In this document: piece by piece, positions 5,056 through 41,401 of the stretch
How the letters are laid out: each line of letters opens with the position of its first letter
How positions within the stretch are numbered: position 1 is the first letter of the stretch
Assembly (NCBI GenBank): GCA_029939235.1
Contig: JAOZTG010000008.1
Span: 1 to 41,401, forward strand
Source of the DNA: Flavobacteriaceae bacterium
GTDB taxonomy: Bacteria; Bacteroidota; Bacteroidia; Flavobacteriales; Flavobacteriaceae
Direction of reading: 5' to 3'
DNA: 41,401 nucleotides
The notes under the pieces: generated by a model
Seen by the model: the letters and a program-made list of their open reading frames with translations, nothing else
What the model was told of the DNA's origin: nothing
Database searches by the model: none
Program-made: the position numbers and the translations under genes

Positions 5056-5101
5056 TTCTATTTGTTATTGATAAAAGAATCAAGAATCAAAAACTACGAC
5101 T

Positions 5102-5908: not shown

Positions 5909-5951
5909 GATATTTTTATTTTAGTAAAGGATATAAAAATTTCCTTATAAT

Positions 5952-6623: not shown

Positions 6624-6625
6624 AA

Positions 6626-7321: not shown

Positions 7322-7326
7322 AATAA

Positions 7327-22967: not shown

Positions 22968-23750
22968 TTAAAAATCTTTCTTTTGAAGTTTTCGTTTCAT
23001 TCTCCATACGGGAATAATCACCCAAAGGGATAAAACGATCAATGATAAGATCAAACCCAGATTAGTTCCGAAAAACTCTTTAAAAACTGCTCCGGTATAA
23101 CCGAGTAAAGCGGAAATATCAAGTTTCAATAAAATCAATATTCGGGAAAGATCTATGGGGTTAAACATTGTTGCTGCTAAAGAAAATTTATCCAAAGGAT
23201 ACTCATTGAACATTACCAGTGAGATCATAAATATACCATCATATATCACAGCTAAGAACAACCACATCAAAATTGCATAACCGAACCCTTTGATCTTATT
23301 ATCCTGTGATAATGCTATATTGAAAGCCAAAGCAACAAATATAAAATTCAAAAATGACCCAACTACCAATAATAATCCAAAATCAAAAATGGCAGCAGAT
23401 CTAAACAAACCATACATTAAAAATGGAATTCCTAACCCCAGAGCTAAACTCAAAGTTAATGAGATAGAAATACCTAAATACTGCCCCATAAAAATTGTAC
23501 TTCTTTTAATAGGCTGTGCCAGAAGTAGTTCAGTAAACTCTTTGGAATTATAATAATACATCACTCCAAAAATTGTCCCTATCAGAGGAGTAAGAACAAT
23601 AATGATATTCATTAATGTTATGATGGCTTTATTAATATCATTATTTAAAAATAACAATACAAATCCAAGGGCTAAATAAAATGCAAAATAAACATAGCTC
23701 CACCGGCTTCGCATTAGATCATAAAAACTATATTTTAATATTTTAAACAT
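22968..23750 (-). CDS. nosY: ABC transporter permease NosY (cluster 1)
   Basis: A 260-residue membrane protein with about six helices, of the ABC-2 type. It carries the NosY-like features FKILKYSFYDLMRSRW at the start, YYNSKEFTELLLAQPIKRSTIFMGQYLG after the second helix, and a PIDLSRILILLKLD segment near residue 200. With NosF and periplasmic NosD it forms the NosDFY complex that supports assembly of the Cu-S centre CuZ. It overlaps nosF1 by eight bases, implying translational coupling, and closes cluster 1. Confidence 0.9.
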   Translation of the reverse strand: MFKILKYSFYDLMRSRWSYVYFAFYLALGFVLLFLNNDINKAIITLMNIIIVLTPLIGTIFGVMYYYNSKEFTELLLAQPIKRSTIFMGQYLGISISLTLSLALGLGIPFLMYGLFRSAAIFDFGLLLVVGSFLNFIFVALAFNIALSQDNKIKGFGYAILMWLFLAVIYDGIFMISLVMFNEYPLDKFSLAATMFNPIDLSRILILLKLDISALLGYTGAVFKEFFGTNLGLILSLIVLSLWVIIPVWRMKRKLQKKDF

Positions 23751-24450
23751 TTTCTTTAGTCATTAAATTAGCGATAGCATGTTCAAGATCATTTTGTTTG
23801 GTTTGTTGTTTTAACTCGGCTACACTACCTTTAAAATAAATAATTCCATCCAATAAAAACACAATTTCATCTGCTATCTCTTCTACTAAACTCATAATAT
23901 GCGTGGTGATCAAAAGAGTTTTACCTTTCTCTTTTTCTTTTTGAATGATCTCCTTTAAGTGAATTAATGAAATTGGATCCAAACCTGTAGTAGGCTCATC
24001 TAAAATGATCAGATCACTATCAAACATAAAGGTTAAAATGATATTTACTTTTTGTTTCGTTCCTCCTGATAAATTACCCAGCTTTTTATCTAAAAAAGGT
24101 TCTAAACTAAAAAGTTGAATTAAATCTTTATCCTGTGCTTTTTTCGGACGTAGATTTTTAACCATGGAAATCAATTCATTCACCCTAAGGTTTGCAGGGA
24201 AATTTGCGATCTGTGGCAAATAGTTAATTTGATTTCGATAATCCCATTGTTTTAAAACTGAATTTCCATCAATCTCGATTTCACCTGAATTAGGAATCAC
24301 CATCCCCAAAATACTTTTTATCAAAGTAGTTTTCCCGGAACCATTTGGACCTAAAATTGCAAAAATTCCACCCTTTTTAATCTGCAGATCCAAACCGTCT
24401 AAAACAGTTAGTTTTCCAAATTTTTTATGTAGGCTACTAATATCTATCAT
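23743..24450 (-). CDS. nosF: ABC transporter ATPase NosF (cluster 1)
   Basis: A 235-residue ABC ATPase. Walker A is GPNGSGKTT (about 34-42), the signature is LSGGTKQKVN, Walker B is LIILDEPTTGLDP and the switch His is in TTHIMS. Position between nosD and nosY assigns it to the NosDFY maturation complex of N2O reductase. It lies 52 bases after nosD1. Confidence 0.93.
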   Translation of the reverse strand: MIDISSLHKKFGKLTVLDGLDLQIKKGGIFAILGPNGSGKTTLIKSILGMVIPNSGEIEIDGNSVLKQWDYRNQINYLPQIANFPANLRVNELISMVKNLRPKKAQDKDLIQLFSLEPFLDKKLGNLSGGTKQKVNIILTFMFDSDLIILDEPTTGLDPISLIHLKEIIQKEKEKGKTLLITTHIMSLVEEIADEIVFLLDGIIYFKGSVAELKQQTKQNDLEHAIANLMTKENV

Positions 24451-24502
24451 TTTTGATTTATCTGTTATTTAACTGAATATCACCATTATATTTAAAATAT
24501 TT

Positions 24503-25750
24503 CTATTCATAAATTGGATTTATTGGTTCTGTTAAAGGCTTATTGTCTAATAAATCATCAGGCGTGAAAACCGGGGATACCTTTTCGGAAAAATTAATAA
24601 TATCAACAAATAAACTCCTCAATAACACCAATGTTTCCGGGGTTTTATTTACTACATATGAAAATAATTTCACTGGACGGTGAGGTACATCTCCAATACC
24701 ATTTTTATCCAGATCATAACCAGTATATTCACTCCAGTAATTGGCCTCAAACTTATTATCATTTAACCTGCTATTATAGGACAGGTCAAAAGCATTATGC
24801 ATAAAATTATTGAACTCAAAAACATTTGTATAACATCCTCCTGTAAATTTTACTGCCCAGCCGTTTCTTATAAAGTGATTTTCTTTATAGCTAATTCTGT
24901 TACAGCCGTCCACATTAATTCCAATGGTGTTCTGTTCAAAAATATTGTTGTTAATATCAGCATCATTAATTTCTTTTAAAAGTAAGCCATAAGATGCTGT
25001 ACCCCAATTATAATGAAATGTATTGTGATGCATTTTAATAAATTTGGAAAACATGACAGCGACACCGGCACCGTTATTTTTGAATTCATTATGATGATAT
25101 TCATTGTGATGTGAAAACATAAAATGTAATCCATAACGAATATTATCTCTACTTGAATTGTTTGAAATAAAGCTTTTATCTACAAACTCTAAATAAATAC
25201 CATCTCTCATACCCAAAAGTACATTTTGCTCAATTCTCATATGCGAACTTTTCCATACATGCACACCATTACCGGCACTTGTTTCATTTTTGGCATCATT
25301 GCGTCCGTAGATCTTGTTATTCTGAATAATCCCATATTTGACCCTTTGTAAAATAAAACCATAGAAAACATTTTCAGCAATATTATCTTTTATTGTAAAA
25401 TTCTTTGAGTGCGAAATAAAAACGGCAGCTATTTCCTTGGTATGGCTCATTCCAATATTGATGAACTTAAACCCTGATATACTAAAATTATCAGCTTTTA
25501 CCGCAAATATGCTTTCTGTTTTATTCTCAGCATCAATAACCGGATAATCAACACCAATAATATGAATGGCTCTGTTTACATTAATTTGATTTTCCTTGTA
25601 AATACCTTTTTTTACTAAAATGGTGTCTCCATCTTTGGCTAATAATACAGCTTCTTTTATGGATTTTACACCACAGGAATCACATACATTGATCGTATTG
25701 GCGTGAATTACAGACGTAAATACTAAAAAGAATACTAAAATAAATCTCAT
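24503..25750 (-). CDS. nosD: Periplasmic copper-site assembly protein NosD (cluster 1)
   Basis: A 415-residue exported protein (signal peptide about 1-17, cleavage near HA-N) with a right-handed beta-helix made of CASH/NosD repeats: many NN, HHN and N-F/I-I turns between about residues 60 and 330. The C-terminal NYWSEYTGYDLDKNGIGDVPH motif is the classic NosD/CASH ending. It works with NosF and NosY in CuZ biogenesis. It starts one base after the nosL1 stop. It is clearly divergent from nosD2 at 37045-38346. Confidence 0.94.
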   Translation of the reverse strand: MRFILVFFLVFTSVIHANTINVCDSCGVKSIKEAVLLAKDGDTILVKKGIYKENQINVNRAIHIIGVDYPVIDAENKTESIFAVKADNFSISGFKFINIGMSHTKEIAAVFISHSKNFTIKDNIAENVFYGFILQRVKYGIIQNNKIYGRNDAKNETSAGNGVHVWKSSHMRIEQNVLLGMRDGIYLEFVDKSFISNNSSRDNIRYGLHFMFSHHNEYHHNEFKNNGAGVAVMFSKFIKMHHNTFHYNWGTASYGLLLKEINDADINNNIFEQNTIGINVDGCNRISYKENHFIRNGWAVKFTGGCYTNVFEFNNFMHNAFDLSYNSRLNDNKFEANYWSEYTGYDLDKNGIGDVPHRPVKLFSYVVNKTPETLVLLRSLFVDIINFSEKVSPVFTPDDLLDNKPLTEPINPIYE

Positions 25751-25751
25751 T

Positions 25752-26192
25752 CTATTTTGAGAGTTCTGTTTTTAACTGTTCCCAGGTATAAAGTTTACCT
25801 CCGTTTTCTTTTAGTAATTTCTCAGCAGTTTCTTTGGAACTGAAAGCAGAAAGGTTAGCTCCCATCGGACTCTTAATATTTTCACTAATTAAATATGTAG
25901 CAGTTTTTGCATCCACAAGATTTCCCGGATCTGCATAATCAGCAACCAACAAAAATTCCATCAAATTCTCATTATCATCCCTGCTGATCTTCATAACCAT
26001 ACACTCTACAGCATCAAACATATAGGCTTTTCCTTTTTTGGTAACATATTGTGCCGAATGACTTTTATCTACAACTGTCATGTCACAAAGAAGGCAATGG
26101 TCTTGGCCATAGTTTATTTCTTTTGGTTCAACTTTGCATGATGTAAATAGCAACAACACTGCAGAAAAAAATAATAATAGTGCTTTTTTCAT
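25752..26192 (-). CDS. nosL: Copper chaperone lipoprotein NosL (cluster 1)
   Basis: A 146-residue protein counted from the Met at 26192, which gives a perfect lipoprotein signal (MKKALLLFFSAVLLLFTSC). An upstream in-frame Met at 26258 would add 22 unlikely residues. The motif HCLLCDM is the NosL CxxCxM copper(I) site, followed by MTVVDKSHSAQYVTKKGK, YLISENIKSPMGANLSAF and a C-terminal LYTWEQL. NosL delivers Cu(I) for CuZ assembly and is probably anchored in the outer or inner membrane facing the periplasm. A TAnnTTTG match (TACATTTG, 26213-26220, minus strand) lies just upstream. Confidence 0.92.
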   Translation of the reverse strand: MKKALLLFFSAVLLLFTSCKVEPKEINYGQDHCLLCDMTVVDKSHSAQYVTKKGKAYMFDAVECMVMKISRDDNENLMEFLLVADYADPGNLVDAKTATYLISENIKSPMGANLSAFSSKETAEKLLKENGGKLYTWEQLKTELSK

Positions 26193-26286
26193 TTTAATAT
26201 CGTTAGAGTTTTCAAATGTAATAATAATTGAGCATAATGACAGAACCACCCTACTCAATAAATTCTCATAATCATTCTAAATTTAA

Positions 26287-26874
26287 TTAATTATTTGCTT
26301 CTTTTTTACCGATAAAAAATGCGACAAAAGTTAAAAACATTCCCGTAAACATAAACCATGCTCCCGCTCTTGGGTAAGAATGAGCAGTAAAATTAAGTAT
26401 ATCTTTAGTTCCATACAACGGTGGTTGAAAGCCCATTACAGATCCATCCGGATTTTTGAAATTCATAATCGCTTTAGGATCTAAATTATGACCATAATCA
26501 TACTCCCAAAGATAAAAATCATACATTCCTGCAATTCCCAATACAGACATCAATATAAACCAGAATAGAAACCATTTATATTTTCCAATAAAACCAATGA
26601 CTACCCCTAAAACAATCATCATACCAATTACTATAGGAAATATTGTAAACTCTGGTATGGACTCAGGAATATACTGCATACCAACATAGTGATTCATTAA
26701 ATTGATATTTTTAATATCGAATTCATTCGTGTCAGCAAATTTATTTATATAGATCTCCATTCCCAGAGGGATTGGGTACTGCGGTGCTTCAAGCGTAATA
26801 TTCCATAATGGAAAGGCAAATAATCCAAGTAATAACAGAGAACCTGTTATCATTAAAATTTTTGATTTTTTCAT
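26287..26874 (-). CDS. NosB-like integral membrane protein (cluster 1)
   Basis: A 195-residue membrane protein with four predicted helices (about 5-24, 78-97, 101-119 and 169-189). It starts with a helix followed by FPLWNITLEAPQYP, then has MNHYVGM near residue 62, and YGHNLDP before the last part. The same order of motifs occurs in the 276-residue protein at 38479-39309 of cluster 2, so the two are paralogues. Both follow a nosZ gene directly, as the polytopic NosB does in clade II nos clusters, so NosB is the likely identity, but I assign it by position and not by sequence memory. Conserved His residues in NHYxGM and YGHxLD could bind metal or haem. Confidence 0.65.
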   Translation of the reverse strand: MKKSKILMITGSLLLLGLFAFPLWNITLEAPQYPIPLGMEIYINKFADTNEFDIKNINLMNHYVGMQYIPESIPEFTIFPIVIGMMIVLGVVIGFIGKYKWFLFWFILMSVLGIAGMYDFYLWEYDYGHNLDPKAIMNFKNPDGSVMGFQPPLYGTKDILNFTAHSYPRAGAWFMFTGMFLTFVAFFIGKKEANN

Positions 26875-26921
26875 GATTCTTTTTATGATTTAAATGAGAT
26901 AGTAATACAAAAAAATATAAA

Positions 26922-26929
26922 CAAATATA
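26922..26929 (-). promoter_or_regulatory. Candidate -7 element for nosB1
   Basis: Minus-strand TATATTTG fits TAnnTTTG, 47 bases before the nosB1-like start and downstream of the nosZ1 hairpin. It could give nosB-L-D-F-Y a promoter of their own. No -33 TTG is evident. Confidence 0.3.
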
Positions 26930-26987
26930 TGCATTAAACATTTGAATAAATGCTACTTAACATGCATAAAAGATGATTAATCTTAAT

Positions 26988-27034
26988 TTATAAAAATATA
27001 AAAGCGGACAGAAACATCTGCCTCCGTCCGCTTT
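26988..27034 (-). terminator. Hairpin (terminator or attenuator) after nosZ1
   Basis: AAAGCGGAC (27001-27009) pairs perfectly with GTCCGCTTT (27026-27034). On the minus strand the stem is followed by a T-rich stretch (TTTTATATTTTTATAA). It begins about 30 bases after the nosZ1 stop and could lower expression of the downstream maturation genes. Confidence 0.7.
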
Positions 27035-27063
27035 AAACAATATATATTTAAACTATAAATATT

Positions 27064-29049
27064 TTACAGATCATCTTCTCCCGGAATATCACCATCCAAT
27101 GTATAGGTCAGAGGCACATTGGATCCTTTTGCAGAAACACGAACATATCCTTGCATTTCCTGATGCAATGCTGAACAGAAATCAGTACAATAGAATGGCC
27201 AAACACCAACTTGTTTAGGTTCCCATGTAAAAGTAGTAGTTCTACCCGGCATGATCAATAATTCTGATGTATTAGCACCAATCATTGAAATACCATGAGG
27301 CACATCATAATCCTGTTCTAAGTTAGTTACATGGAAAAATACTTTGTCACCAACTCTTACTCCTTCAATATTATCAGGTGAGAAGTGTGAACGAATCATT
27401 GACATATAAATATGTACTTCATTTCCTTTTCGAACAACTTTGGTTTCAGCTTCGGTTTTAACAGCATATTCATGCTTATTATCCTCTAAACGGAATATTT
27501 TTTGTGAATTTTTTGCAACTATATCAGCAGCAATACCTGCCGCATAATGTGGTTCACCAATCGTTGGAAAATCCAATAGCAGTTCCATTTTTTCACCGGA
27601 GATATCAAATAACTGAGCACTTTGACATACTTCAGGACCTGTTGGTAAATAACGGTCTTTTGTAATTTTGTTCATTGCAACCAAATATTTATCGTCAGGA
27701 GTTTGAGAATTTCCACCTGGTATCATTAAGTGACCTACGGAATAATAAACCGGATGTCTGTCAATAACTTTCAAATCTTTGATATTCCACTTTACAACTT
27801 CCGAAGAAATAAAGAATGTTGTATATCCATTTCCTCTTGTATCAAATTCTGTATGAAGTGGTCCTAAACCCGGTTGATCTAAAACACCATAATTTACTGC
27901 TTCAAATTTAATAATTGGAATTCCATATGCATCACCATCAAATGCTTTATCAGCAATTGCTTTTTGCATTTTGGTAAATGAGTGAACAGTCATCGCTGCG
28001 GCTAATTTACCATTACCAATAATATATTCACCTGTTGGATCAACATCACAACCATGTGGTGATTTAGCCGTAGGTAAGAAATAAATAGCTCCGGGAACAT
28101 CTTTAGGTTCAACAACCAATACTTCTTTTTTCATCACAGAAGTAGAAGTATGTGCATCATCATTCCATGTATTATGTGCATATTTTGCAGGTACTTTTTT
28201 CCCTCCTCCATTTTTTACATACTCTTCAATTTTTTTCCAGTTAATGGCAGCAATAAAATCCTTATCATTTTGAGATGCATTAACTTCCAATAAAGTATTT
28301 GCTTCTTCTGTATTATAAGTTGAGAAAAAGAACCATCCATGAGATTTTCCACGACCAGGATGAGATAGATCATAGTTGAAACCTGGCATTTTTATCTGGA
28401 AAGCAATTTCCATATTACCATGGTCTTTATCAATACTTAAAAAAGTAAGAGCACCACTAAAGTTACCTTTTAGATCTTTTATAGGCATATCTCTTTGAGG
28501 AAACGGAACTGCAAAACGAGTACCTGCCACCACATATTCTGAGTTTTCAGTAACAAATGAAGAACTGTGATTTCCGGCAGAATTAGGAATTTCAATAATT
28601 TCTTCTGTCTCAAAAGTTTTCAAACTGATACGTGCAATACGAGGTGTATTGTTTTCATTGATAAATACCCAACGACCATCAACTGTACCATTTGTTTGAG
28701 AAATGTCTGGATGATGAGAATCCCCCCAGGGAATAAAACCATGAGATGTCATTAACATTGGTTTGGTTTCTTCACTATAACCGTAACCTTTTTCAGGATC
28801 TTGTGAAAATACCGGTATTACTCTAAACAAACGACCTGATGGCAATCCGTAAACAGCCAACTGACCGCTAAAACCACCGGATACAAATGCATAATGAGAA
28901 TCGTGCTCACCCGGTGCAATATAAACTTTTTCAGCAGCATTACCTGTTATTGCTCCTTTGCTTGTTTTTTTACTTGTATCCGGACCACAACCTATCAGGA
29001 AAGTAGCAGTAATTGCAAATAAAAAAATCGATTTAAAAATTGTTTTCAT
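27064..29049 (-). CDS. nosZ: Nitrous oxide reductase NosZ, clade II, Sec/lipoprotein type (cluster 1)
   Basis: A complete 661-residue N2O reductase that reduces N2O to N2 in the periplasm. The signal peptide is Sec type with a lipobox (LIGC, Cys21) and has no twin Arg, as in clade II of Bacteroidota. The seven-bladed propeller carries all seven CuZ histidines by motif: His112 and His113 (GDSHHPD), His161 (AGNHSS), His332 (KSPHGCD), His399 (GPLHTE), His440 (SVGHLM), His501 (GEPHYA). The C-terminal cupredoxin domain has the full CuA set: His585 (VPHGIS), Cys621, Cys625, His629 and Met632 in YCTDFCSALHQEM. It follows the cytochrome c gene after 32 bases and is probably transcribed from upstream of the fasciclin gene. 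Confidence 0.97.
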   Translation of the reverse strand: MKTIFKSIFLFAITATFLIGCGPDTSKKTSKGAITGNAAEKVYIAPGEHDSHYAFVSGGFSGQLAVYGLPSGRLFRVIPVFSQDPEKGYGYSEETKPMLMTSHGFIPWGDSHHPDISQTNGTVDGRWVFINENNTPRIARISLKTFETEEIIEIPNSAGNHSSSFVTENSEYVVAGTRFAVPFPQRDMPIKDLKGNFSGALTFLSIDKDHGNMEIAFQIKMPGFNYDLSHPGRGKSHGWFFFSTYNTEEANTLLEVNASQNDKDFIAAINWKKIEEYVKNGGGKKVPAKYAHNTWNDDAHTSTSVMKKEVLVVEPKDVPGAIYFLPTAKSPHGCDVDPTGEYIIGNGKLAAAMTVHSFTKMQKAIADKAFDGDAYGIPIIKFEAVNYGVLDQPGLGPLHTEFDTRGNGYTTFFISSEVVKWNIKDLKVIDRHPVYYSVGHLMIPGGNSQTPDDKYLVAMNKITKDRYLPTGPEVCQSAQLFDISGEKMELLLDFPTIGEPHYAAGIAADIVAKNSQKIFRLEDNKHEYAVKTEAETKVVRKGNEVHIYMSMIRSHFSPDNIEGVRVGDKVFFHVTNLEQDYDVPHGISMIGANTSELLIMPGRTTTFTWEPKQVGVWPFYCTDFCSALHQEMQGYVRVSAKGSNVPLTYTLDGDIPGEDDL

Positions 29050-29081
29050 AATTTAGTTAAATTTAGTTTAGTTTTTTAGTT

Positions 29082-29552
29082 TTAGTTTTTTGTTCTAAAA
29101 TACTCAAGAACAGCTCTTGCTTCTTCCTCCGTCAGATTTTGATTTGCCATAGGAGCACTATACTCCATTAACAATTCTTTTGCTTTGGCATTTTCAACAA
29201 CCATCACTTCAGGATTTAATATCATATTCATGATCCACTCAGGTGTTTGCTTTTTAGTAACTCCTGCTAAAGGTGGTCCAACAAAACGCTTGGTCATTTT
29301 ATGACAAGCCGTACATTTTGCTCTAAATATTTCTTTTCCTTTTTCGGCCAAAGCATTGTCAATATCACCCAAAGTAAGACTCTTAATAGGCCCCACACCT
29401 TTATCCTTCATTGGATCGATCTTCTCAGGCTCCTTTTCCTTTGTTACTTCCTTTTTTTCAGGTTCTTTAGCAACTTCTTCTTTCGCTTTTTCACCTCCAC
29501 AACTGGACATTAAAACTACCAATATCAGTATTGTCAAAAATTTTAATTTCAT
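29082..29552 (-). CDS. Monohaem cytochrome c lipoprotein, probable electron donor to NosZ1
   Basis: A 156-residue lipoprotein (lipobox LMSSC, Cys18). A charged Lys/Glu-rich tether (about 21-50) precedes a small class I cytochrome c domain with Cys80, Cys83 and His84 (KCTACHK). Met135 in YSAPMANQNL is the likely sixth haem ligand. Its place directly before nosZ1 suggests it feeds electrons to CuA. The haem domain resembles the first haem domain fused to NosZ2 at 39480: both show CxACHK, FxGPxLA, a Trp-containing helix and MxNQN in the same order. Confidence 0.9.
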   Translation of the reverse strand: MKLKFLTILILVVLMSSCGGEKAKEEVAKEPEKKEVTKEKEPEKIDPMKDKGVGPIKSLTLGDIDNALAEKGKEIFRAKCTACHKMTKRFVGPPLAGVTKKQTPEWIMNMILNPEVMVVENAKAKELLMEYSAPMANQNLTEEEARAVLEYFRTKN

Positions 29553-32019: not shown

Positions 32020-32940
32020 CTATTTTATGTCTTGCCAAACACCAGTTGCCAGATCATTTTCATCAATAAATCCTAAAATTTCTTTTGGAATATTTTTAGC
32101 TCCTTTAAAGTTTGTGCCTTCAAACTCGGTACCAAAAAAATTACAGCCTTTTAAATCAGCACCACTAAAATCAGTGCCTTGTAAGTGGCCTCCCTGAAAA
32201 TTTGCATACCAAAGTCGTGAATTGATAAAGGTAGATTCTTCCAATCCGGCACCTGTAAAATCAGCATAGGAAAAATCACAACTATCCAATTTAGATTTTA
32301 TAAGCACAGCCCTGAATAATTTTGCTTTTATGCCTGTCGAACCCGTCAAATCACTTTCTAAAAACTCTGAATCTTTCATCAAAGCTCCCGAGAAATCACA
32401 ATTACGCATGGTGGTAAAATGACCTTCCATACCAAACATATTTGCTCCTCTAAAGTTAGAATTTGATAGTGGCACATAATTAACTTTTACATGAAACAAT
32501 CTACTTTGCTGGAAATTAATACTATCCATAACAGAACCATCAAAAATAGTCCACCTTACATCCGCTGCTCTAAAATCAGATTTACGATAATTACCATCCA
32601 TACATCGGCCTGAACGTATAGATGCCCCTCTAAAATCTCCTTCAATTACACTGGCTTTTGGCCAGTAAACCTCATCTAATGAATCTCTACGAAAATCATC
32701 ACCGTCCTGAGGAATTGCTTTAATCCCCTTGTATCTTTTTTTACCACTCAAAAGCGTAGTTTCTTCATCAATAATTGCATTAAGCTGATCTGGCTCTAAA
32801 AATATTGCCAGCTCCGGTAAGCCTGTTGTATCTGGTTTATTGGGAAATAACTGACTCGTTACTGATGCACTTTGGAATGAACACGAAAACAAAAAAAATG
32901 AGAAAATTATAATAATTGTAAAATGTAAAATGTTTTTCAT
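32020..32940 (-). CDS. Pentapeptide-repeat lipoprotein in nos cluster 2
   Basis: A 306-residue lipoprotein (signal peptide with lipobox LFSC, Cys20). From about residue 95 to 285 it consists of A(D/N)LxX-type pentapeptide repeats, such as SNFRGANMFG, CDFSYADFTGAGL and TDFSGADLKGCNF, which form a right-handed quadrilateral beta-helix. It begins 48 bases after nosY2, consistent with one operon. A surface-exposed or periplasmic scaffold role is likely. No enzyme motif is visible. The link with nos is positional only. Confidence 0.85.
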   Translation of the reverse strand: MKNILHFTIIIIFSFFLFSCSFQSASVTSQLFPNKPDTTGLPELAIFLEPDQLNAIIDEETTLLSGKKRYKGIKAIPQDGDDFRRDSLDEVYWPKASVIEGDFRGASIRSGRCMDGNYRKSDFRAADVRWTIFDGSVMDSINFQQSRLFHVKVNYVPLSNSNFRGANMFGMEGHFTTMRNCDFSGALMKDSEFLESDLTGSTGIKAKLFRAVLIKSKLDSCDFSYADFTGAGLEESTFINSRLWYANFQGGHLQGTDFSGADLKGCNFFGTEFEGTNFKGAKNIPKEILGFIDENDLATGVWQDIK

Positions 32941-32988: not shown

Positions 32989-33825
32989 TTATACAACATC
33001 ATTTCTATTAAAATACCTATTACCTAAAAAGGCAAACAGAAAACCTAAAATGATTGGATATAAAATTGAAAATGCAATAAAAACACTTCTACTTACCGTG
33101 TCTAACACATAATAAGATGCCGTTCCCATTACAGTAAGCTGAGGATCAAAAAGAATTAAACTACCTGTTCGAAAAACCTGCAATGGATTTAGCATTCCCA
33201 AACCTATGATCAGATCTGGATTACCACGCATTCGCAACATAATTCCAATTAAAATCAGATCGATAAATGCAACCAGAAATAACCAAATAATAAACGCAGT
33301 ACTAACAGCAATATCTTGTGAGGAAGCTCTGGCAGAAATATACATACTCAATCCTAAAAAGAAGAACACCAAAGACGCCAACAAAGCACTATACAGGAAA
33401 AACAAGTCCCATGGCACATCAATATTAGTAATTAAGGCCCAAATTACCGATCCTAACAAGGCAATAAAAACAGGAGTGTAAATAATAAAAAAACGTCCAA
33501 TGAGTTTTCCCCAAAAATAACTACTAAAAGAAATGGGCAAAGATAATATGTACTCCATCACACTATTTTCTCTGTCACCTACTACTGAACGAACCGTTGA
33601 AATAAGCACATAAATAGGTAAAATTGCCATACTAATTTGCATAAAAGTAACCATTAGCCGACTCAAACCAACAAATCCTATAATTTGTGATTCGGTTATA
33701 CCGGATGTAAACATTACAGCTACAAATCCGCCAAATAATAAACTATAAGCCCAAAACCAAGTGGAACGAAGGTTTTGACGAATATCAGATTTTATAATTT
33801 CCTTTAAACTTTCAAAGTTTTTCAT
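32989..33825 (-). CDS. nosY: ABC transporter permease NosY (cluster 2)
   Basis: A 278-residue ABC-2-type membrane protein with six predicted helices. Motifs typical of NosY permeases include DIRQNLRSTWFWAYSLLFGG at the start, RSVVGDRENSVMEYILSLPISFSSYFWGKLIGR after the second helix and GMLNPLQVFRTGSLILFDP near residue 210. It would form NosDFY with NosF2 and NosD2. It begins 52 bases after nosL2. It is poorly similar to nosY1 apart from the shared family pattern. Confidence 0.88.
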   Translation of the reverse strand: MKNFESLKEIIKSDIRQNLRSTWFWAYSLLFGGFVAVMFTSGITESQIIGFVGLSRLMVTFMQISMAILPIYVLISTVRSVVGDRENSVMEYILSLPISFSSYFWGKLIGRFFIIYTPVFIALLGSVIWALITNIDVPWDLFFLYSALLASLVFFFLGLSMYISARASSQDIAVSTAFIIWLFLVAFIDLILIGIMLRMRGNPDLIIGLGMLNPLQVFRTGSLILFDPQLTVMGTASYYVLDTVSRSVFIAFSILYPIILGFLFAFLGNRYFNRNDVV

Positions 33826-33877
33826 TGATACAGATCTATATTGATTTTTTATTTTATCAGCTATAATAAAACGAGAA

Positions 33878-34435
33878 CTAATTCTTTTTTACTTTGTCGT
33901 TTTCTTTCTCTAATTTTTCTTCCAACTTTTTCAATTTTTCCGGGTTCTCTTTCATCATCAACATTTTTTCCTGAATAAAAGCCTCTCTCATAGTTTTTCC
34001 TTCATTGATCCTTTGTAATACCTGCTCAAAAGTATAAACACTATCCGTATCAGGTTTATTAGAGTAAGCAGAATAACCATATCCCATTGGCGTATGTTTA
34101 CCATAATCATAAAATGCTGTTTCTGCATCAATCCAATTGGAAGGATCATTTCCCTTACTTGCATCTCCTATCCAAAACCTAGCTTTATTGCCTTTCCACT
34201 GATTCCAGGTCATAGTATCTCTCATCTCTTCAGCCAAACAACCTATATCATCATACCAATGAACTTCTCCAAATTCATTAATAGATTGAGCATTATAACG
34301 TTGATCCGTCAATCCCATAAGACAGATATAACACACATCCCTATCAAAATTAATATCACGGGCTTCGTACGTTACATTTTGTCTACATGAACTAAAAAGA
34401 ATAAAAACTCCTAGTAGTAAACTTATTTTATTCAT
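33878..34435 (-). CDS. nosL: NosL-like copper lipoprotein with charged C-terminal extension (cluster 2)
   Basis: A 185-residue protein counted from the Met at 34435, which gives the lipoprotein signal MNKISLLLGVFILFSSC. In-frame Mets at 34444 and 34495 are alternatives; the latter would overlap nosF2. The NosL copper motif is VCYICLM (CxxCxM). FGEVHWYDDIGCLAEEM, WIDAETAFYDYGKHTPMGYGYSAY and YTFEQVLQRI follow the family order. The last 45 residues are unusual for NosL: a Met-containing EKMLMMKEN stretch and then a highly charged Lys/Glu coiled-coil-like tail. Presumed role: Cu(I) delivery to NosZ2. Confidence 0.85.
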   Translation of the reverse strand: MNKISLLLGVFILFSSCRQNVTYEARDINFDRDVCYICLMGLTDQRYNAQSINEFGEVHWYDDIGCLAEEMRDTMTWNQWKGNKARFWIGDASKGNDPSNWIDAETAFYDYGKHTPMGYGYSAYSNKPDTDSVYTFEQVLQRINEGKTMREAFIQEKMLMMKENPEKLKKLEEKLEKENDKVKKN

Positions 34436-34478
34436 TGTATACATATTTAATCTTTTTAACCGACGGTTAAAATTTTCA

Positions 34479-35132
34479 TTATACTTCTTTGTCAATCACA
34501 ATTTTACCCATATCCATTTCGATTAAACGATTTACCAAATTTTCTACTTCATCAATTCGATGGCTACTTATGATCATCAAAGCATTTTTGTCAAATTTAT
34601 GTAAATAATCAAATAATATATTTCGAGCTTTAGGATCTAAGTTAGCAGCGGGTTCATCCATTAATAAAATTTTTGGGGTTCTTCCTAATGCAAAAGATAC
34701 CAGAAGTTTTTGCTTCATTCCTCCTGATAGTTTCATAAAAGGTTTGTTCAAATTGCTTTGTACATCTAAACCTAAATTTTCGCTAATCTCCACAAATTCT
34801 TGTTGATCAGTATTGGTTAGTTTTCCAAAAAAATCCAACATTTCTCCAACAGTCATTTTTATTGGTGGAGGAATCTGTGGTACAAAACCAATATTCTGCA
34901 GTATTAATTCTCTTTCTTTTCGTGGATTCATCCCCAGCACCTCAATATCACCTTCGTATTTATAGAGTCCTAAAATACAACGTATCAGAGTTGTTTTTCC
35001 AGCACCATTCTGACCTACTAAAGCAATTCGTTCCCCAGCTTTAAAACCATTTGTCAAATTCTCAATTACAGTTGTTTTTTTAAAGGATTTTGTAAGCTGA
35101 TCAACTGAAATTAAGATTTCTGAGTCTTCCAT
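34479..35132 (-). CDS. nosF: ABC transporter ATPase NosF (cluster 2)
   Basis: A 217-residue ABC ATPase. Walker A is GQNGAGKTT (about 40-48), the signature LSGGMKQKLLV, Walker B ILLMDEPAANLDP, and the switch His is in SSHRIDE. Flanking nosH, nosL and nosY place it in the NosDFY complex. It starts 29 bases after the nosH stop. It is shorter than NosF1 (235 residues) because the C-terminal tail is absent. Confidence 0.92.
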   Translation of the reverse strand: MEDSEILISVDQLTKSFKKTTVIENLTNGFKAGERIALVGQNGAGKTTLIRCILGLYKYEGDIEVLGMNPRKERELILQNIGFVPQIPPPIKMTVGEMLDFFGKLTNTDQQEFVEISENLGLDVQSNLNKPFMKLSGGMKQKLLVSFALGRTPKILLMDEPAANLDPKARNILFDYLHKFDKNALMIISSHRIDEVENLVNRLIEMDMGKIVIDKEV

Positions 35133-35161
35133 TTATTTTTTTAGTTAGATTTTTGTAGTAT

Positions 35162-36094
35162 TTATAATAATTTTTCAAAGCCTTTTACCGTATATGTTAA
35201 AGCATCACCATAACAAACATCAATACACAAACCACATCTTGTACAATCTGCTCCTGCAAAATGAACCTCTTTGGTGGCCTCACCCCTCTTTACAAACCAG
35301 AGTTCATGTGGCACCAAACATACATCCTGACAATCCCGGCAATGACCACATTTAGACAAGTCAAATTTTACAGCCATAGGTGATAATTTACCAATAGCAC
35401 TATATGTTACTCCTATAGGACAAACATAACGACACCAAAAACGTTTGGAATATACAATTTCAAAAAGTAATAAAATAACTACCCATAACAATAATAATCC
35501 GGGACCGTAAATAAGAGCTCTTGAAATGATACCTACCGGATTTAAGTTTTCAAAAACCAGATTTTTAGTTATAAAAGCCAGCAATAAAAATCCCACCCAA
35601 AAGATATATTTGACCCCAATATTAAAATTATGCTCCTTGATCTTTTTCTTTTTTACAAAATAATTATGCACTTTTTCAGCATTTTCTGCTAAAAAATGAT
35701 ACGGACAAAGCCATGAGCAAAATGTACGACCGCCCAGTAAAAAGTAAAACATTATTATTATAAAAAATCCGATAAAGAAATTCATGGTTAACATTCCAAA
35801 ATAACCCGTGCGATTTCCAATAAACATCTCTTGCAGGGCATTGTAGGGATCCATTAAATAAATTCCTATAAAACGAGAGCCGCTAAGTGAACCTTCCAAT
35901 ATTCCTATATCAAAAGCAAAAGATGCCCAAAATAGAAAATTGAAAAATAGTAAAACACCCCAGCGTATGTTACGCCATTTGTGTTTATTTGGCTTGCTTG
36001 CTTTCCATTCTTTAAAAGTGATCCCTAATTTAGAATTGGGCATATCCTCTCTACGTTTAGCAGGTATTGGTGGTAATTTTTTAACGTTTATCAT
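35162..36094 (-). CDS. nosH: NapH-like ferredoxin/membrane quinol dehydrogenase subunit NosH
   Basis: A 310-residue integral membrane iron-sulfur protein of the NapH/NosR C-terminal type. Four to five membrane helices are interspersed with the two CxxxCP motifs SWLCPYHF and CRYVCPIGV. The C-terminus carries two 4Fe-4S clusters: CGHCRDCQDVC and CTRCGLCIDVC. With NosG it is thought to pass electrons from menaquinol to periplasmic N2O reductase in clade II systems. It starts 11 bases after nosG. No equivalent is present in cluster 1. Confidence 0.9.
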   Translation of the reverse strand: MINVKKLPPIPAKRREDMPNSKLGITFKEWKASKPNKHKWRNIRWGVLLFFNFLFWASFAFDIGILEGSLSGSRFIGIYLMDPYNALQEMFIGNRTGYFGMLTMNFFIGFFIIIMFYFLLGGRTFCSWLCPYHFLAENAEKVHNYFVKKKKIKEHNFNIGVKYIFWVGFLLLAFITKNLVFENLNPVGIISRALIYGPGLLLLWVVILLLFEIVYSKRFWCRYVCPIGVTYSAIGKLSPMAVKFDLSKCGHCRDCQDVCLVPHELWFVKRGEATKEVHFAGADCTRCGLCIDVCYGDALTYTVKGFEKLL

Positions 36095-36105
36095 CAGAAA
36101 AGTTT

Positions 36106-36939
36106 TTAAGCGGTTTCTAATTTTTCTATAAAAATACTACTTGGTGTTGTTGGACAAACCATTTCGCAAACCCCACAACCGGTACAGCCATCTAACACTA
36201 TTGGACGCCAGATTTTTTCTCCATTTCCTTTTATCTTCTCTTTCATAATGATAGCTGTATCACCTATAGGACATTCCGTAACACATAAATCACATAACTC
36301 ACGATTAAACACATGATCATTTACCGGAGATGCTTTTCGTTCTTTTCGTTTAGGATTAGGTGAACGATAAACTCCTTCAAACCCATCCTCTCTGGGGACA
36401 CCTTTATAACTTTGTCCTTTTCTGGCCAGGCAGGTTTCATGGTTTGTAACTGCAATACCCATTTTAGTATTTGATTTCATTGCCAGTGATTGCACAATAA
36501 ATGGATTATGATCCGGATCCGGAGTAGAATTTTCTTTTTGATATTCCAATAAAGCATTTTCGCCAGCCTTTTTAAAAGGCAGAAAATCTAATGCTGCAGT
36601 TGGACATGTTTCTACACATTGCATGGCATCACAAGAAAAATCGCAGGCTTGTGCTCGTGTATCAATGTATGGTGTGCCATAAGACAAACCATCTGAAATT
36701 CCAGCTAGTTTTATAGCTTCTATAGGGCATATTTGTACACAAAGTCCGCATTTGATACATGCATATATAAAATCATCTTCAATAACAGCACCGGGTGGAC
36801 GCAATAATACTTTATCACTTTTCTCATTAAGGTGTTTTAAGTAATTTACTCCAACACCCACAGCTCCCAGAGCAGCAACTGCAACTGCTCCATTTTTTAG
36901 AAACTGTCTTCTATTAATATCTGATTTTGATTTTTCCAT
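36106..36939 (-). CDS. nosG: NapG-like periplasmic ferredoxin NosG
   Basis: A 277-residue protein with a twin-arginine signal (NRRQFLKNG, Arg10-Arg11, then a hydrophobic stretch), so exported folded through Tat. Four cysteine groups for 4Fe-4S clusters are visible: CIKCGLCVQICP, the atypically spaced CDFSCDAMQCVETCP, CDLCVTECP with an upstream Cys in HETCLARKG, and CTGCGVCEMVCP. This is the NapG/MauM/NosG pattern. It lies between nosD2 and nosH, the order seen in Wolinella-type clade II clusters (nosZ-B-D-G...H-F-Y-L), here without nosC1/C2. Confidence 0.9.
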   Translation of the reverse strand: MEKSKSDINRRQFLKNGAVAVAALGAVGVGVNYLKHLNEKSDKVLLRPPGAVIEDDFIYACIKCGLCVQICPIEAIKLAGISDGLSYGTPYIDTRAQACDFSCDAMQCVETCPTAALDFLPFKKAGENALLEYQKENSTPDPDHNPFIVQSLAMKSNTKMGIAVTNHETCLARKGQSYKGVPREDGFEGVYRSPNPKRKERKASPVNDHVFNRELCDLCVTECPIGDTAIIMKEKIKGNGEKIWRPIVLDGCTGCGVCEMVCPTTPSSIFIEKLETA

Positions 36940-37044
36940 ATAATATCAGTATTAAGTTTTATATATTTGGTTTTCTTATTTACAAATCACTATTCTCTCT
37001 TCCTTCTTTTCGATTTTCCCTCTTAACAATATTCTCTATAAAAT

Positions 37045-38346
37045 TTAGTAATTATGCTCTTTATTTTGTTCCCATTTGTATAAAGGCTTTTTATCTCTCA
37101 ATACAAATTTTGGTTTTGAAAATGGAGCTAAACGTTCTAAAAAGTCCAATACTTCCAAAATAGGAGCCCCGTAAAAGAATTTTACATTTTTATTAAATGC
37201 CCATAAATGTTCACTATAACTGTATAAACTATAAGGTACATCACCTATATTGTCTTCATCCTTATCAAAGCCTTGATAATCACTCCAGTAATTACCTTCA
37301 AATTTATTTCCATTTGCTGTTTTACCACGGGTATATACCTGTGTTAAATTATCATGAAGGTAGTTTCCTTTGACTAAATTACCTTCCAAATCAGAATGAA
37401 ACAGCATACCCACATTGCAAAAAGCAATTTCATTGCCTACTACTGTATTTATTTTTTCAGTTACAAAAGGAGATACATCAAAGTGAATACCATAAGCAGA
37501 ATATAGAAAACGATTATTTAGTATTTGATTAGAAGATGTTTCTTTTAAGCCTAAACACATTCCGGTTGAACCTACTGATCCCTGAATTAAATTTTCAGAT
37601 AAAATTGTTTGCTCACTATACATCAGAAAAACTCCTACAGAATTATTATAAAATTCGTTATTATGTATACGATTATTATGTGCATACATAAAGTGAATAC
37701 TATATCTGTTTCCTACCCCTTTATTACCTTCAAAATGATTACCGGAAGAATACCAAACTACCATATCACGTACACCATGCCAATAGTTGAACATAATTCT
37801 ATTATTGGTAGAATACCACAAACGTATTGCATCACCTTTTAAGGCTAAAGGTTTTCTTGAGATAGAGGTAATATCATTGTGCTTAACAATAACTCCATCT
37901 GATTTAAAAATATCAACTCCAAATAGACATTCTTCAATAAGACAATTTTGAACTGTTGTATAATTTGCCTCTATGATCTTTACCCCTGCATCTAATCTGT
38001 CAGGAGAATCACCTGAATTTGTTATATGTAAATTTTTAACGGTAACGCTATCCGCTTTGACGTAAATAACAGATTCATTTGCCATACCGGAAATTGTTGC
38101 TTTTCCTCCACCATCAATTACCACATTGGGCACTTTGATTGTTGCCGGACCTGTATAAAAACCTGGTTTTAATTTTAAAGTATCCCCCGGCTTGAGATTT
38201 TTAAGCAATGTATTGAGGAATACTTGATTCTTATCTGAAGTAAAAGGAGTAATTTCAGTATTTAAACCAAACGTATTTGAATCTTTTTCCTGCGAAAAAG
38301 AATTCCATTGTAATAGTATTAACAATATGAGGAAGTAAATTCTCAT
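37045..38346 (-). CDS. nosD: Periplasmic copper-site assembly protein NosD (cluster 2)
   Basis: A 433-residue exported protein (signal peptide about 1-18, cleavage near SFS-Q). A beta-helix of CASH/NosD repeats runs from about 60 to 345, with repeats such as NNRIMFNYWHGV, NRIHNNEFYNNSVGVF and NQILNNRFLYSAYG. The closing motif is NYWSDYQGFDKDEDNIGDVPY. The N-terminal LKPGDTLKLKPGFYTGPATI matches the first coil of NosD. The strong terminator upstream ends only 28 bases before the start codon, so expression depends on read-through or a promoter within the hairpin. A 105-base spacer separates it from nosG. Confidence 0.94.
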   Translation of the reverse strand: MRIYFLILLILLQWNSFSQEKDSNTFGLNTEITPFTSDKNQVFLNTLLKNLKPGDTLKLKPGFYTGPATIKVPNVVIDGGGKATISGMANESVIYVKADSVTVKNLHITNSGDSPDRLDAGVKIIEANYTTVQNCLIEECLFGVDIFKSDGVIVKHNDITSISRKPLALKGDAIRLWYSTNNRIMFNYWHGVRDMVVWYSSGNHFEGNKGVGNRYSIHFMYAHNNRIHNNEFYNNSVGVFLMYSEQTILSENLIQGSVGSTGMCLGLKETSSNQILNNRFLYSAYGIHFDVSPFVTEKINTVVGNEIAFCNVGMLFHSDLEGNLVKGNYLHDNLTQVYTRGKTANGNKFEGNYWSDYQGFDKDEDNIGDVPYSLYSYSEHLWAFNKNVKFFYGAPILEVLDFLERLAPFSKPKFVLRDKKPLYKWEQNKEHNY

Positions 38347-38478: not shown

Positions 38479-39309
38479 TTAACTATTCGATTTTAATGAA
38501 ATAGATTTTCTTTTAAACAATATTGCTAACAATAAAAAAACAAATACTCCAAGTGCCACAAAGAACCCATAATAAGGATAAGCAACTGTTTCAAACTGAG
38601 CCACTTTACCATGTCCGAAAACAGTTGGCATAAATGGTTTAATACCTGCAAAAGCTCCACCGCCGTGTAAATCTAAATGATGACCATACCAATACATGGA
38701 ATACATATAAAGAAAAAGGAAATAAAACGGTAACAATGATGGTAATATAGCAAATATTGCATTCTTCTTCTTAGGAGTTACAATAAAAACGATTACCAAT
38801 AAACCCAAAACAACAAAAATATACCTTGAATTAACCAAAATACCATTCAATATTTTCAAGTATTGTGGTGTAACATCAATTTGCAATGGGCTGCCGGTTT
38901 CAGGATCAATAACATCTTCACCTTCCCCATCTTTTTTAGTATCAAAAACATAATATTCCGGTACCGGTTTTATTTGTCCTTCTTTTACTTCTTCATACAT
39001 ACGACTATTGATGCCTTGTACTATTGGGTACATACCGATATAATGGTTAATTGCAGTCATTTCCATTAAACAATCTGCTCCTTCATTAGTTGTAATTTCC
39101 GATCTTTCCTGTACTCCTTCACAGCCATTATAAACTCCATCGTATTTAAATTCAATACGAATACCTTTTGGATACATTGATTTTGGGTATTGATGACTTT
39201 GTAAAGCCACCCACCATATAGGCATAAAATATACTGCAATGATTAACAATAATCCAACTACAGCGAAGATTTTGTACAGAAGTCCAAATTTTTTTGCTTG
39301 ACTATCCAT
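38479..39309 (-). CDS. NosB-like integral membrane protein (cluster 2)
   Basis: A 276-residue protein with about four predicted helices (near 11-32, 165-183, 187-208 and 247-266). Shared landmarks with the 195-residue protein of cluster 1 are MPIWWVALQSHQYP at the end of helix one, INHYIGM near residue 89, YGHHLD near 212 and a VAYPYYG stretch before the last helix. It is longer because of a Cys-containing insertion after helix one (NGCEGVQERS...ADCLMEM), with two Cys that might form a disulfide in the periplasm. It directly follows nosZ2 as NosB does in clade II clusters. Function unproven. Confidence 0.62.
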   Translation of the reverse strand: MDSQAKKFGLLYKIFAVVGLLLIIAVYFMPIWWVALQSHQYPKSMYPKGIRIEFKYDGVYNGCEGVQERSEITTNEGADCLMEMTAINHYIGMYPIVQGINSRMYEEVKEGQIKPVPEYYVFDTKKDGEGEDVIDPETGSPLQIDVTPQYLKILNGILVNSRYIFVVLGLLVIVFIVTPKKKNAIFAILPSLLPFYFLFLYMYSMYWYGHHLDLHGGGAFAGIKPFMPTVFGHGKVAQFETVAYPYYGFFVALGVFVFLLLAILFKRKSISLKSNS

Positions 39310-39479: not shown

Positions 39480-41401
39480 TTATTTGGCGGTAGCTCCTGC
39501 CGCGCTTAACATATATTTGATTGCATTTTTCATGTCATCATCAGATAAATCAGTGAATCCACCTTTTGGAGGCATCACACCAATTTTTCCCTGGAATCCT
39601 TTGATTGTGTGATCAAGAAGTACATCCATACCTTGAGCTCCAATTGTTGCCCAACGTTCTTTTTCATCTAATTTAGGAGCACCCGTTACACCGGTAGAAT
39701 GACAAGCCATACATTTGGTATCGTAAGTTGCTTTACCATTCCCAAAATCACCACCAGCACCAGCAGCACTTGTGTCGCCAGATTTAGCTTCCATTACTTC
39801 CTTCGATTTTGCTTTCATATAGGCAATAATCTTTGTTGCATCCTCTTTAGAAACATTTTGATTAGGCATTGCCAGTTTATAATGCTGACGCATAGCTTCT
39901 ATATCGGTATCTTTCATTTTAGAATCCGGATCTAAAATCCATTCTTTTAGCCATTTGTCATCTCTACGTAATTCGATCATCGCTAAATCTGGTCCGTTAA
40001 ACTCCCTACCAAATTTATGACAAGCACTACAACCATAGTTCAAATATTCCAATTCACCAGGTAATAGGTTTGCTAACTCAATTGCCGATGGTTTAAATGA
40101 TTGCATTTTCATGTCTACGTTGATACGATCTGTATAAGCCAATACTCTATCATTATCTGCAACCTGATCAAACTCAACTGCTAAATAACCAACTAACTGA
40201 CGTTTCGATGGACTGTTTTGCGCATCTAATAAGATAGGATACATACCAGATTTATCAGCTAAAAACTTAATAGTGGCCGTTTCACCCGGACTAAAATGAT
40301 ACATTTTGTCATAGGCAGAAATTTGATAAACATAATGATCTAATTTAGTTTGACCATGATTTGTAATATATAAGGATACCGTTTGACCTTGTTTTACATT
40401 AAGGTTATCCGGAGTTATTTTACCATCTTTTATGGTTCCATAAACATATACATTTTTACCCTTTACGGTAGTCTTTTCAGCACCTAATGCAGTAAAATGC
40501 TTAGATTTTTCATCTGTAATAATGTTAGTTCCTACAGGATAGATTTCCTCTGACTTAAACTCATCAAGGTGAATTAAAGTTGTATAATGAGGTTCACCCA
40601 TTGGTAATGGTAAATCATATATTACAACAGGGTCTCCATCACCACTTATATCAATAAGTTGGTGATTTTGTGGATGTAAAGGTCCAACCGGGTTAAAACG
40701 ATCAATAGATAATTTATTTAAAGAAATTAAATATTTACCATGAGGTTTTTGAGTATCTCCGGAAGCAGATACCAAGTGACCTACATTATAATGAGAAGGC
40801 ACATAACCTAATACTTTTAGGTTGATATAATCCCATTTGGTAATACGTGAATCTACATAAATAGAAGTATAAATAATACCTTTTTTACTATCATATTGGT
40901 TGTGTAATGGTCCTAATCCAACCTCAACACTACCATGTAAAGCATCTTCTAATTTGATAATATTAATACCGTACCTGTCTTTCCCTTCAAAATTTCTATC
41001 TTTAATAGCTTTCATTATTTTATCAAACTTGTAAACCCAAGCGTGAGAATCTAATTTACCGGCTACTACAATATATTGACCGGTTGGGTCAACATCAACA
41101 CCATGAGGTGATTTTGGCTCAGGAACTAAGAAAAATAAATCATGCTTAACAGCATCTGCTATTTTAATTACTCTGTGACCACGAACCATCATTGGTTTGA
41201 TTGTACCATTTTTTAATAATTTTTCAGCTTTTTTCCAGTTGGTTACATGTAAGTAATCCACATCTCTTGAAGAACAACCTGCTTCAAATGGAGGGCGTCC
41301 ACTTTCAATACCACCATAATACATCTCTGTACAAAATGAATTGGTAAAACCCCAACCATAAGAATCTAATTTACCTGCATCAGATAAATCTTGTGTATAA
41401 G
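39480..41401 (-). CDS. NosZ-like protein lacking the CuA site, fused to two cytochrome c domains (5' end outside window)
   Basis: The open frame continues to the right edge: 25 residues precede the first visible Met (41324), which is therefore not the start. I number 639 visible residues from 41399. Residues 1-285 are NosZ propeller, with four CuZ histidines in their family motifs: His99 (KSPHGVD), His166 (GPLHNQ), His208 (NVGHLV), His271 (GEPHYT). The first three CuZ histidines would lie outside. Residues 300-410 are the cupredoxin domain; where NosZ1 has YCTDFCSALHQEM this protein has LLDAQNSPSKRQL, so no CuA Cys, His or Met remains. Two haem-c domains follow: Cys457-Cys460-His461 with Met511 (AMPNQN), and Cys563-Cys566-His567 with Met609 (GVMPPKGG). 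An Ala/Gly-rich linker joins them. It leads a full set of nos maturation genes. Confidence 0.9.
   Translation of the reverse strand, partial: YTQDLSDAGKLDSYGWGFTNSFCTEMYYGGIESGRPPFEAGCSSRDVDYLHVTNWKKAEKLLKNGTIKPMMVRGHRVIKIADAVKHDLFFLVPEPKSPHGVDVDPTGQYIVVAGKLDSHAWVYKFDKIMKAIKDRNFEGKDRYGINIIKLEDALHGSVEVGLGPLHNQYDSKKGIIYTSIYVDSRITKWDYINLKVLGYVPSHYNVGHLVSASGDTQKPHGKYLISLNKLSIDRFNPVGPLHPQNHQLIDISGDGDPVVIYDLPLPMGEPHYTTLIHLDEFKSEEIYPVGTNIITDEKSKHFTALGAEKTTVKGKNVYVYGTIKDGKITPDNLNVKQGQTVSLYITNHGQTKLDHYVYQISAYDKMYHFSPGETATIKFLADKSGMYPILLDAQNSPSKRQLVGYLAVEFDQVADNDRVLAYTDRINVDMKMQSFKPSAIELANLLPGELEYLNYGCSACHKFGREFNGPDLAMIELRRDDKWLKEWILDPDSKMKDTDIEAMRQHYKLAMPNQNVSKEDATKIIAYMKAKSKEVMEAKSGDTSAAGAGGDFGNGKATYDTKCMACHSTGVTGAPKLDEKERWATIGAQGMDVLLDHTIKGFQGKIGVMPPKGGFTDLSDDDMKNAIKYMLSAAGATAK

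Follow-up and report, generated by a model that had tools for sequence, protein, structure and literature searches.

Tandem NosZ homologues that divide CuZ and CuA between them: a probable heterodimeric nitrous oxide reductase in Bacteroidota and related phyla

Introduction

The principal biological sink known for nitrous oxide (N2O) is NosZ, whose cytochrome-fused form, cNosZ, keeps both copper sites, CuA and CuZ. For the Marinobacter N2O reductase PMC11573801 places CuZ next to the CuA site of the partner protomer. The ligands of CuA are H579, C614, W616 (through its carbonyl), C618, H622 and M625, CuZ is bound by seven histidines, and the conduit from CuA to CuZ is formed by F617, E488 and K450. 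The cNosZ operon of Wolinella succinogenes has the order nosZBDGC1C2HFYL, and a role of NosGH as menaquinol dehydrogenase has been described for that organism (PMC8139620). The NosZ-like proteins of DPANN archaea carry a CuA motif without CuZ and branch between Cox2 and clade II; as far as the consulted sections of PMC10936187 go, two bins have a short five-histidine neighbour, a seven-histidine partner is lacking, and complementation did not lead to significant consumption of N2O.

The stretch of DNA analyzed here (the window) is the whole of a 41,401-nucleotide contig, C20, from a Flavobacteriaceae genome of 3.43 Mb in 303 contigs. It ends within a gene for a NosZ homologue, subunit A, that has CuZ but no CuA, next to a second homologue, B, in which the situation is reversed. 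The closest described systems are the long-form clade II NosZ proteins of Rhodocyclaceae, Myxococcota, Neomarinimicrobiota and others (L086-L093, L095-L119), which have their CuZ and CuA positions in the same places and share their operon genes, in nearly the same order, with the A-B loci, but in which one gene holds 12 of 12 ligands that are here divided over A and B. They match B up to residue 720-726 and therefore have the C-terminal extension in common with it. Wolinella cNosZ shares with A a fused cytochrome c domain, the Sec type and the presence of NosGH and NosB in the operon, but is one polypeptide, whereas A is without CuA on the haem-bearing chain. Unlike the DPANN case, as far as it is set out in the sections mentioned, A and B are both NosZ-length homologues inside a nos operon. 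The lactonase-type NosZ of clade III was considered and rejected as an identity for either protein, its model (NF052460) indicating only distant homology with 88-101 bits for A and 68 bits for B against a cut-off of 700.

The original prediction, made from the DNA letters, had regarded the layout of A as having no known counterpart, and in the titles and opening lines of abstracts of the open-licence literature we likewise found no description of it and no heterodimeric or split N2O reductase of the A-B kind; the accessible part of PMC11148229 does not mention CuA, CuZ or paralogues.

Results

Gene A and its partner B

The minus-strand frame at 39480-41399 comprises 639 codons ending in a TAA stop, is clean and runs open off the contig end. 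It accounts for the last 639 residues of a NosZ-like protein, in which a cupredoxin domain is joined by two domains of the cytochrome c type, in agreement with the clean frame and NosZ kinship originally proposed. The window part of A (39480-41401, minus strand) is matched by the NosZ model TIGR04246 with 426 bits over profile positions 186-577, as befits a fragment, by PF18764 with 96 bits, and by a cupredoxin model. Two further stretches match cytochrome c, PF00034/PF13442 covering the C-terminal cytochrome c domain. Within the visible propeller (40488-41399, minus strand), which carries H4-H7 of the CuZ ligands, all four expected histidine motifs are present as predicted: KSPHG at 41100-41114, GPLH(N) at 40899-40913, VGHL at 40773-40784 and EPHY at 40584-40595. 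The cupredoxin domain that follows (40173-40472, minus strand) is devoid of CuA ligands; its segment at 40188-40244 reads MYPILLDAQNSPSKRQLVG and contains none of them, so that the erasure of CuA from A claimed in the original prediction holds. The two predicted CxxCH sites were also found on the minus strand, haem 1 (39858-40031) as CSACH at 40017-40031 with a candidate methionine in AMPNQ at 39858-39872, and haem 2 (39561-39713) as CMACH at 39699-39713 with a candidate methionine in VMPPKG at 39561-39578; both methionine ligands are assigned from motif.

A search of the genome for the propeller family also matched a second contig, C191, whose first 55 bases are identical to the last 55 of C20, and this 55-mer occurs at these two ends only. 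Joining the contigs yields an A of 902 amino acids, the rest of the gene lying on C191 (L038:3-842), and an orthologue search in the same genome returned the same two pieces in the correct order. The C191 piece supplies the motifs ADTHH and SNHGG, and with them the three N-terminal histidines (H1-H3) that had been sought in the missing 5' end, completing the set of seven CuZ histidines.

Gene B lies on C191 as well (L038:873-3053), 30 bases upstream of A and outside the window, and encodes a NosZ-like protein of 726 amino acids. Its CuA motif is complete, with the histidine in ETHGF followed by CTEFCSALHLEM, and its CuZ positions are occupied by other residues. In Pfam the C-terminal part of B matches the COX2 CuA domain (PF00116, 29.7 against a cut-off of 22), its propeller repeat stays under the cut-off (25.5 against 30), and B as a whole scores 413 bits on TIGR04246, below 625. 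A CuA set elsewhere, which would have counted against the original reading of A, is thus present in the partner and absent from the same polypeptide. Both A and B have leader-like N-termini, and an invariant cysteine in a lipobox-like segment of A (residue 29 of the relative L072; 20 rows) suggests that A is membrane-anchored.

A structure model of A, made for L072 from a 20-row alignment, had a mean pLDDT of 67.6, its propeller and cupredoxin being of fair quality and its N-terminus and linkers weak. It matched 27 entries of solved N2O reductases across propeller and cupredoxin (Z 37.8-39.8 over 493-549 residues, rmsd 2.5-3.5), the next unrelated fold, also a propeller, reaching Z 29.0. The AlphaFold model of B was poor (mean pLDDT 59.7), too poor for geometry, and again N2O reductases headed the list (27 entries, Z 24.4-25.4, rmsd 13-14). 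We take the solved structures that match A and B to be N2O reductases of the one-gene kind.

Distribution and ligand conservation

In a family sample of 299 genomes, A orthologues (66-70% identity) were found in three genomes besides that of the window, making the pair rare (4 of 299), and all three also carry B. The remaining family matches to A lie at 35-40% identity, and in 26 of the 26 loci of this class that were fetched CuZ-type and CuA motifs stand on one chain; 24 of these were classed by a motif filter and two (L020 and L032), which the filters missed and which were left out of the single-gene set, were read directly, both showing DxHH and a CuA motif. A phylum-wide search for B at E 1e-100 in 395 genomes gave the window's own genome as the sole match. 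A scan of genome contigs queried with an alignment of four B proteins, from which at least 80 loci were kept, gave at least 47 loci that reach 60% identity to B and whose titles all name Bacteroidota, Chlorobiota or Melioribacteraceae groups, and at least 33 loci at 41-45% identity from Rhodocyclaceae, Myxococcota, Neomarinimicrobiota and others. The 33 distant loci listed are single genes holding both copper sites, and every carrier of B listed from the scan is metagenome-assembled.

To count the pairs, B was chosen by sequence identity and A by its next-downstream position alone, with no use of motifs. Two of the 47 listed B contigs end inside B; A lies directly downstream in 45 of the 45 listed loci whose contig continues, and the window's A is the best match of all 45 downstream frames. 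Among the readable listed rows of A, H1-H3 are present in 43 of 43 and H4-H7 in 39 of 39. None of the five CuA ligands (H, C, C, H, M) is kept in any readable A row, a histidine occupying column C2 in 11 of 45 listed rows. The five CuA columns are intact in 45 of the 45 readable listed rows of B, which lacks the seven CuZ histidines of clade II NosZ: none is kept in 39 of 47 listed rows, and the one retained in each of the other eight (seven at H6, one at H4) may reflect chance or alignment. In the listed B rows H1 is replaced by R or W (R in 43 of 45), H2 and H3 by F or Y, H5 by D in 47 of 47 and H7 by Y in 47 of 47. Because these replacements are nearly fixed and non-random, the empty hub of B may possess its own distinct structure or function.

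The groups of A, B and single NosZ used elsewhere in this work were built with motif filters, and four duplicate rows (the same contigs reached twice) were dropped from the alignment set. All seven CuZ histidines are present in 41 of 41 aligned A rows, that of the window included, and all 12 ligands in the 63 aligned singles, figures that, like the conduit and conservation values below, rest on motif-made groups, so that their completeness is partly by construction. The singles are the 33 distant loci, the 24 filtered family loci, the ordinary NosZ of the window's genome and four plasmid references, one locus supplying two sequences. Of the A relatives scored on TIGR04246, three full-length ones exceed the cut-off of 625 (635, 644 and 661 bits) and three others lie just below it (618, 620 and 624). 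A or the pair is present twice in some carriers (L040 with L045; L082; L069; genomes G679, G711 and G702), and additional A-like frames occur in G702 (C120) and G711 (C151).

A chimeric assembly or a decaying nosZ duplicate would fit a gene that spans two contigs of a 303-contig assembly, carriers that, among those listed, are metagenome-assembled, and a B that at locus L080 is broken over two frames. The repetition of the layout in 45 listed loci, the dN/dS values far below 1 reported below and the uniqueness of the 55-base overlap contradict a pseudogene or chimera, and we regard such an origin as scarcely credible.

The nos operon and its cytochromes

Downstream of A on the minus strand the window holds the remainder of a nos operon. 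It begins with a NosB-like membrane protein (38479-39309), assigned by position and by homology to single-NosZ operons and without a Pfam or NCBIfam match, and continues with NosD (37045-38346; TIGR04247, 366 bits, cut-off 300), the NapG-like TAT 4Fe-4S protein NosG (36106-36939; TIGR00397, 115 bits, under the cut-off of 179) and NosH, a ferredoxin-type member of the NapH/MauN family (35162-36094; TIGR02163, 233 bits, cut-off 213). These are followed by the ABC transporter ATPase NosF (34479-35132; PF00005) and the ABC-2 permease NosY (32989-33825; PF12679), whose Nos roles are assigned by position, with a NosL-like gene between them (33878-34495; PF05573, E 0.0013, 19.5 bits, under the gathering score of 24). 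The maturation genes NosD, NosF, NosY and NosL thus adjoin A both in the window (32989-38346) and in related loci. The order B-A-nosB-D-G-H-F-L-Y parallels the Z-nosB-D-G-H-F-L-Y of most singles, in which exceptions are NosL before NosF (L088, L114), NosG before NosD (L099) and NosL not seen (L116), and the A-B pair occupies the place that a single nosZ takes in the nosBDGHFLY operon of other phyla. The next gene, at 32020-32940 on the minus strand, encodes a pentapeptide-repeat protein, relatives of which (49-91% identity) occur in 12 of the 16 listed pair loci that have nosY.

A second nos cluster at 22968-29552 comprises genes for a cytochrome c, a clade II NosZ, a NosB-like protein, NosL, NosD, NosF and NosY, of which NosF, NosY, NosL and NosD were named by position and reading. 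Its NosZ (27064-29049, minus strand) has all CuZ and CuA motifs and is an ordinary enzyme outside the A-B system; the cell therefore has two nos systems, 3.4 kb apart. Genes at 3763-9818 presumably form the Nqr set for a sodium-pumping NADH:quinone reductase, to judge from a reading of their sequences.

Of 39 pair loci, 36 have a counterpart of haem 1; L056, L057 and L062 end too early to include it. A c-haem domain is present in 35 of the 35 complete A proteins listed and 24 of these carry one haem, so the two fused haems of the original prediction apply to the window protein and not to the family as a defining trait. In 14 loci (L047, L049-L053, L058, L060, L061, L063, L071, L074, L078 and L082) the equivalent of haem 2 is a homologous, separate small monohaem gene 32-226 bases downstream of A, and on account of this homology that cytochrome appears to have been fused to A in the window protein. 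In 31 of 32 readable single-NosZ loci, nosZ and nosB are separated by one, two or three CxxCH frames, whereas pair loci have one small cytochrome gene between A and nosB in 12 of 32 and none in 20; among these 20, the second haem is fused to A in 11, as in the window, and nine have neither. Descent of the fused domains from the stand-alone cytochromes of single-NosZ operons was considered and set aside, weak matches at E 0.001 or better being obtained in 3 of 33 loci.

Conduit residues, selection and phylogeny

The residues equivalent to the Marinobacter conduit are themselves divided. Within the motif-made groups the phenylalanine is present in 63 of 63 singles and 47 of 47 B but in 0 of 41 A (two of these being gaps), and the glutamate in 63 of 63 singles and 41 of 41 A but in 0 of 47 B, all 47 of which have asparagine; the lysine is found in all singles, A and B. 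Such a division is expected if the CuA domain of B sits on the propeller of A. Mean column identity in propeller and cupredoxin was 0.84 and 0.76 for A, 0.73 and 0.94 for B, and 0.68 and 0.71 for singles, values of which only the within-group ratio is telling, since the groups differ in breadth. Near the active site, the residue at H6+2 is V in 41 of 41 A and M in 47 of 63 singles.

Comparison of the window genome's genes with six relatives gave dN/dS of up to 0.2 in every computable domain and pair, ligand-less domains included (for A, the window part; one haem comparison was saturated), and 0.02-0.04 for the cupredoxin of B. All domains of A and B are under purifying selection.

These data bear on how electrons reach CuZ. 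The original prediction had them enter CuZ from the fused haems, and a homodimer of A working in this way, with B as a separate carrier or a relic, would account for the intact CuZ, the c-haem in 35 of 35 complete copies and the erased cupredoxin site; it also suits operons in which the usual stand-alone cytochrome pair is gone or cut to one, which makes haem delivery mostly covalent. Yet a B with the full CuA set adjoins A in all 45 listed loci that can be read past it, by both column identity and dN/dS its cupredoxin ranks as the best conserved domain in the two proteins, and the conduit phenylalanine survives in B and not in A. A relic would not persist so in bins labelled Bacteroidota, Chlorobiota and Melioribacteraceae. 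As CuA is retained by the neighbouring B, direct haem-to-CuZ entry is not the best reading; we judge the A homodimer quite unlikely, and the route first proposed gives way to one from the haem or haems to CuA of B and on to CuZ of A.

The distance matrices of A and B are correlated (r 0.87 for 40 pairs), to a degree that none of 2000 permutations reached; co-inheritance of the genes would lead one to expect this, and any partnership would fit it. Such a correlation is equally compatible with an A2 homodimer holding CuZ, on which a B2 homodimer holding CuA docks as a separate electron carrier, and, both chains having kept both domains, the sequences alone fit that arrangement. It leaves unexplained, however, why the ligand-less propeller of B and cupredoxin of A are under purifying selection and why the division of the conduit coincides exactly with the known interface between protomers, and we consider two separate homodimers very improbable.

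A tree of 54 of 151 rows, with ligand columns removed, recovered A as one clade and B as one clade (each 100/100), both placed within the long-form single NosZ (support 98/97) and outside the short Bacteroidota NosZ of clade II, among which the ordinary NosZ of the window falls. A and B as sisters are allowed but not shown: the AU test does not reject a single A+B clade (p 0.557), and its support in the free tree is 64/22.

N2O and nitrite reductases of the carriers

In 36 of 40 carrier genomes a TIGR04246 search detected no ordinary NosZ, returning A-like and B-like frames, doubled in some carriers, and weak CuA-domain matches only; an ordinary NosZ (921-944 bits) is present in the other four, namely the window's genome, G680, G683 and G705. 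Completeness values exist for four carriers: three in which no ordinary NosZ was detected are 99, 96 and 95% complete, and the window's genome is 91% complete. Searches for nitrite reductases covered 34 of the 40 carriers and gave a full-length cd1 match in six, the window's genome included, and a copper nitrite reductase above cut-off in two, so that full-length nirS or above-cut-off nirK occurs in 8 of 34. The cd1-type enzyme of the window's genome lies on contig C73 (PF02239, 392 bits), and with it this bacterium may denitrify from nitrite.

An A-B heterodimer might act on a substrate other than N2O, such as NO or another small oxidant. The departures of A from singles at some near-site positions, the coexistence of an ordinary NosZ in four of the carriers and the small share of carriers with a nitrite reductase would be in keeping with this. 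Nitrite reductase is, however, often missing in clade II N2O reducers; the seven CuZ ligands and the conduit glutamate and lysine are invariant in the aligned A proteins, the nosBDGHFLY set is retained in the order of single-NosZ operons, and most carriers show no ordinary NosZ. We consider another substrate quite unlikely.

Discussion

Both genes, their reciprocal loss of ligands and conduit residues, their constant adjacency, the purifying selection on them and their place in a nos operon are most simply accommodated if A is one subunit of a heterodimeric N2O reductase that arose by tandem duplication of NosZ and loss of opposite metal sites, which we hold to be probable. The ancestor would have been a long-form clade II NosZ of ~770 amino acids with CuZ and CuA on one chain. 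After its tandem duplication, CuA would have disappeared from the A copy, which would have retained CuZ and acquired one or two c-haem domains, and CuZ would have disappeared from the B copy, which would have retained CuA.

From these sequences we infer the heterodimer itself, the step from haem to CuA and N2O as substrate. Since in ordinary dimers CuA of one protomer faces CuZ of the other, a dimer of A with B would hold a single functional CuA-CuZ pair. Electrons would pass from menaquinol through NosGH to haem 2, whether fused, separate or absent, and to haem 1 of A, then to CuA of B and across the interface to CuZ of A and N2O; copper would be loaded by NosD, NosF, NosY and NosL. As the C-terminus of A would sit on the ligand-less domain pair, a tether would probably be needed for this relay. 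The full architecture, an obligate A-B heterodimer with a single CuA-CuZ pair and a covalent haem relay (haem 2, haem 1, CuA, CuZ) that is mostly the sole N2O reductase of its carriers in Bacteroidota and related phyla, appears undescribed, and we think it likely to be correct as a whole. On present evidence A and B together would work like an N2O reductase, and neither chain alone has the defining set of sites.

TIGR04246 calls most A proteins normal NosZ and leaves B under its cut-off. Because the model accepts most A despite the missing CuA, gene surveys may count A unaware of the partner that it would need. If the proposed heterodimer is real, one CuZ and one CuA per dimer would let each site be varied without a second copy, and the system would show whether each half of the classical dimer depends on the other. 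It would also exemplify cleanly how duplicated genes can undergo reciprocal loss across the interface of a dimer.
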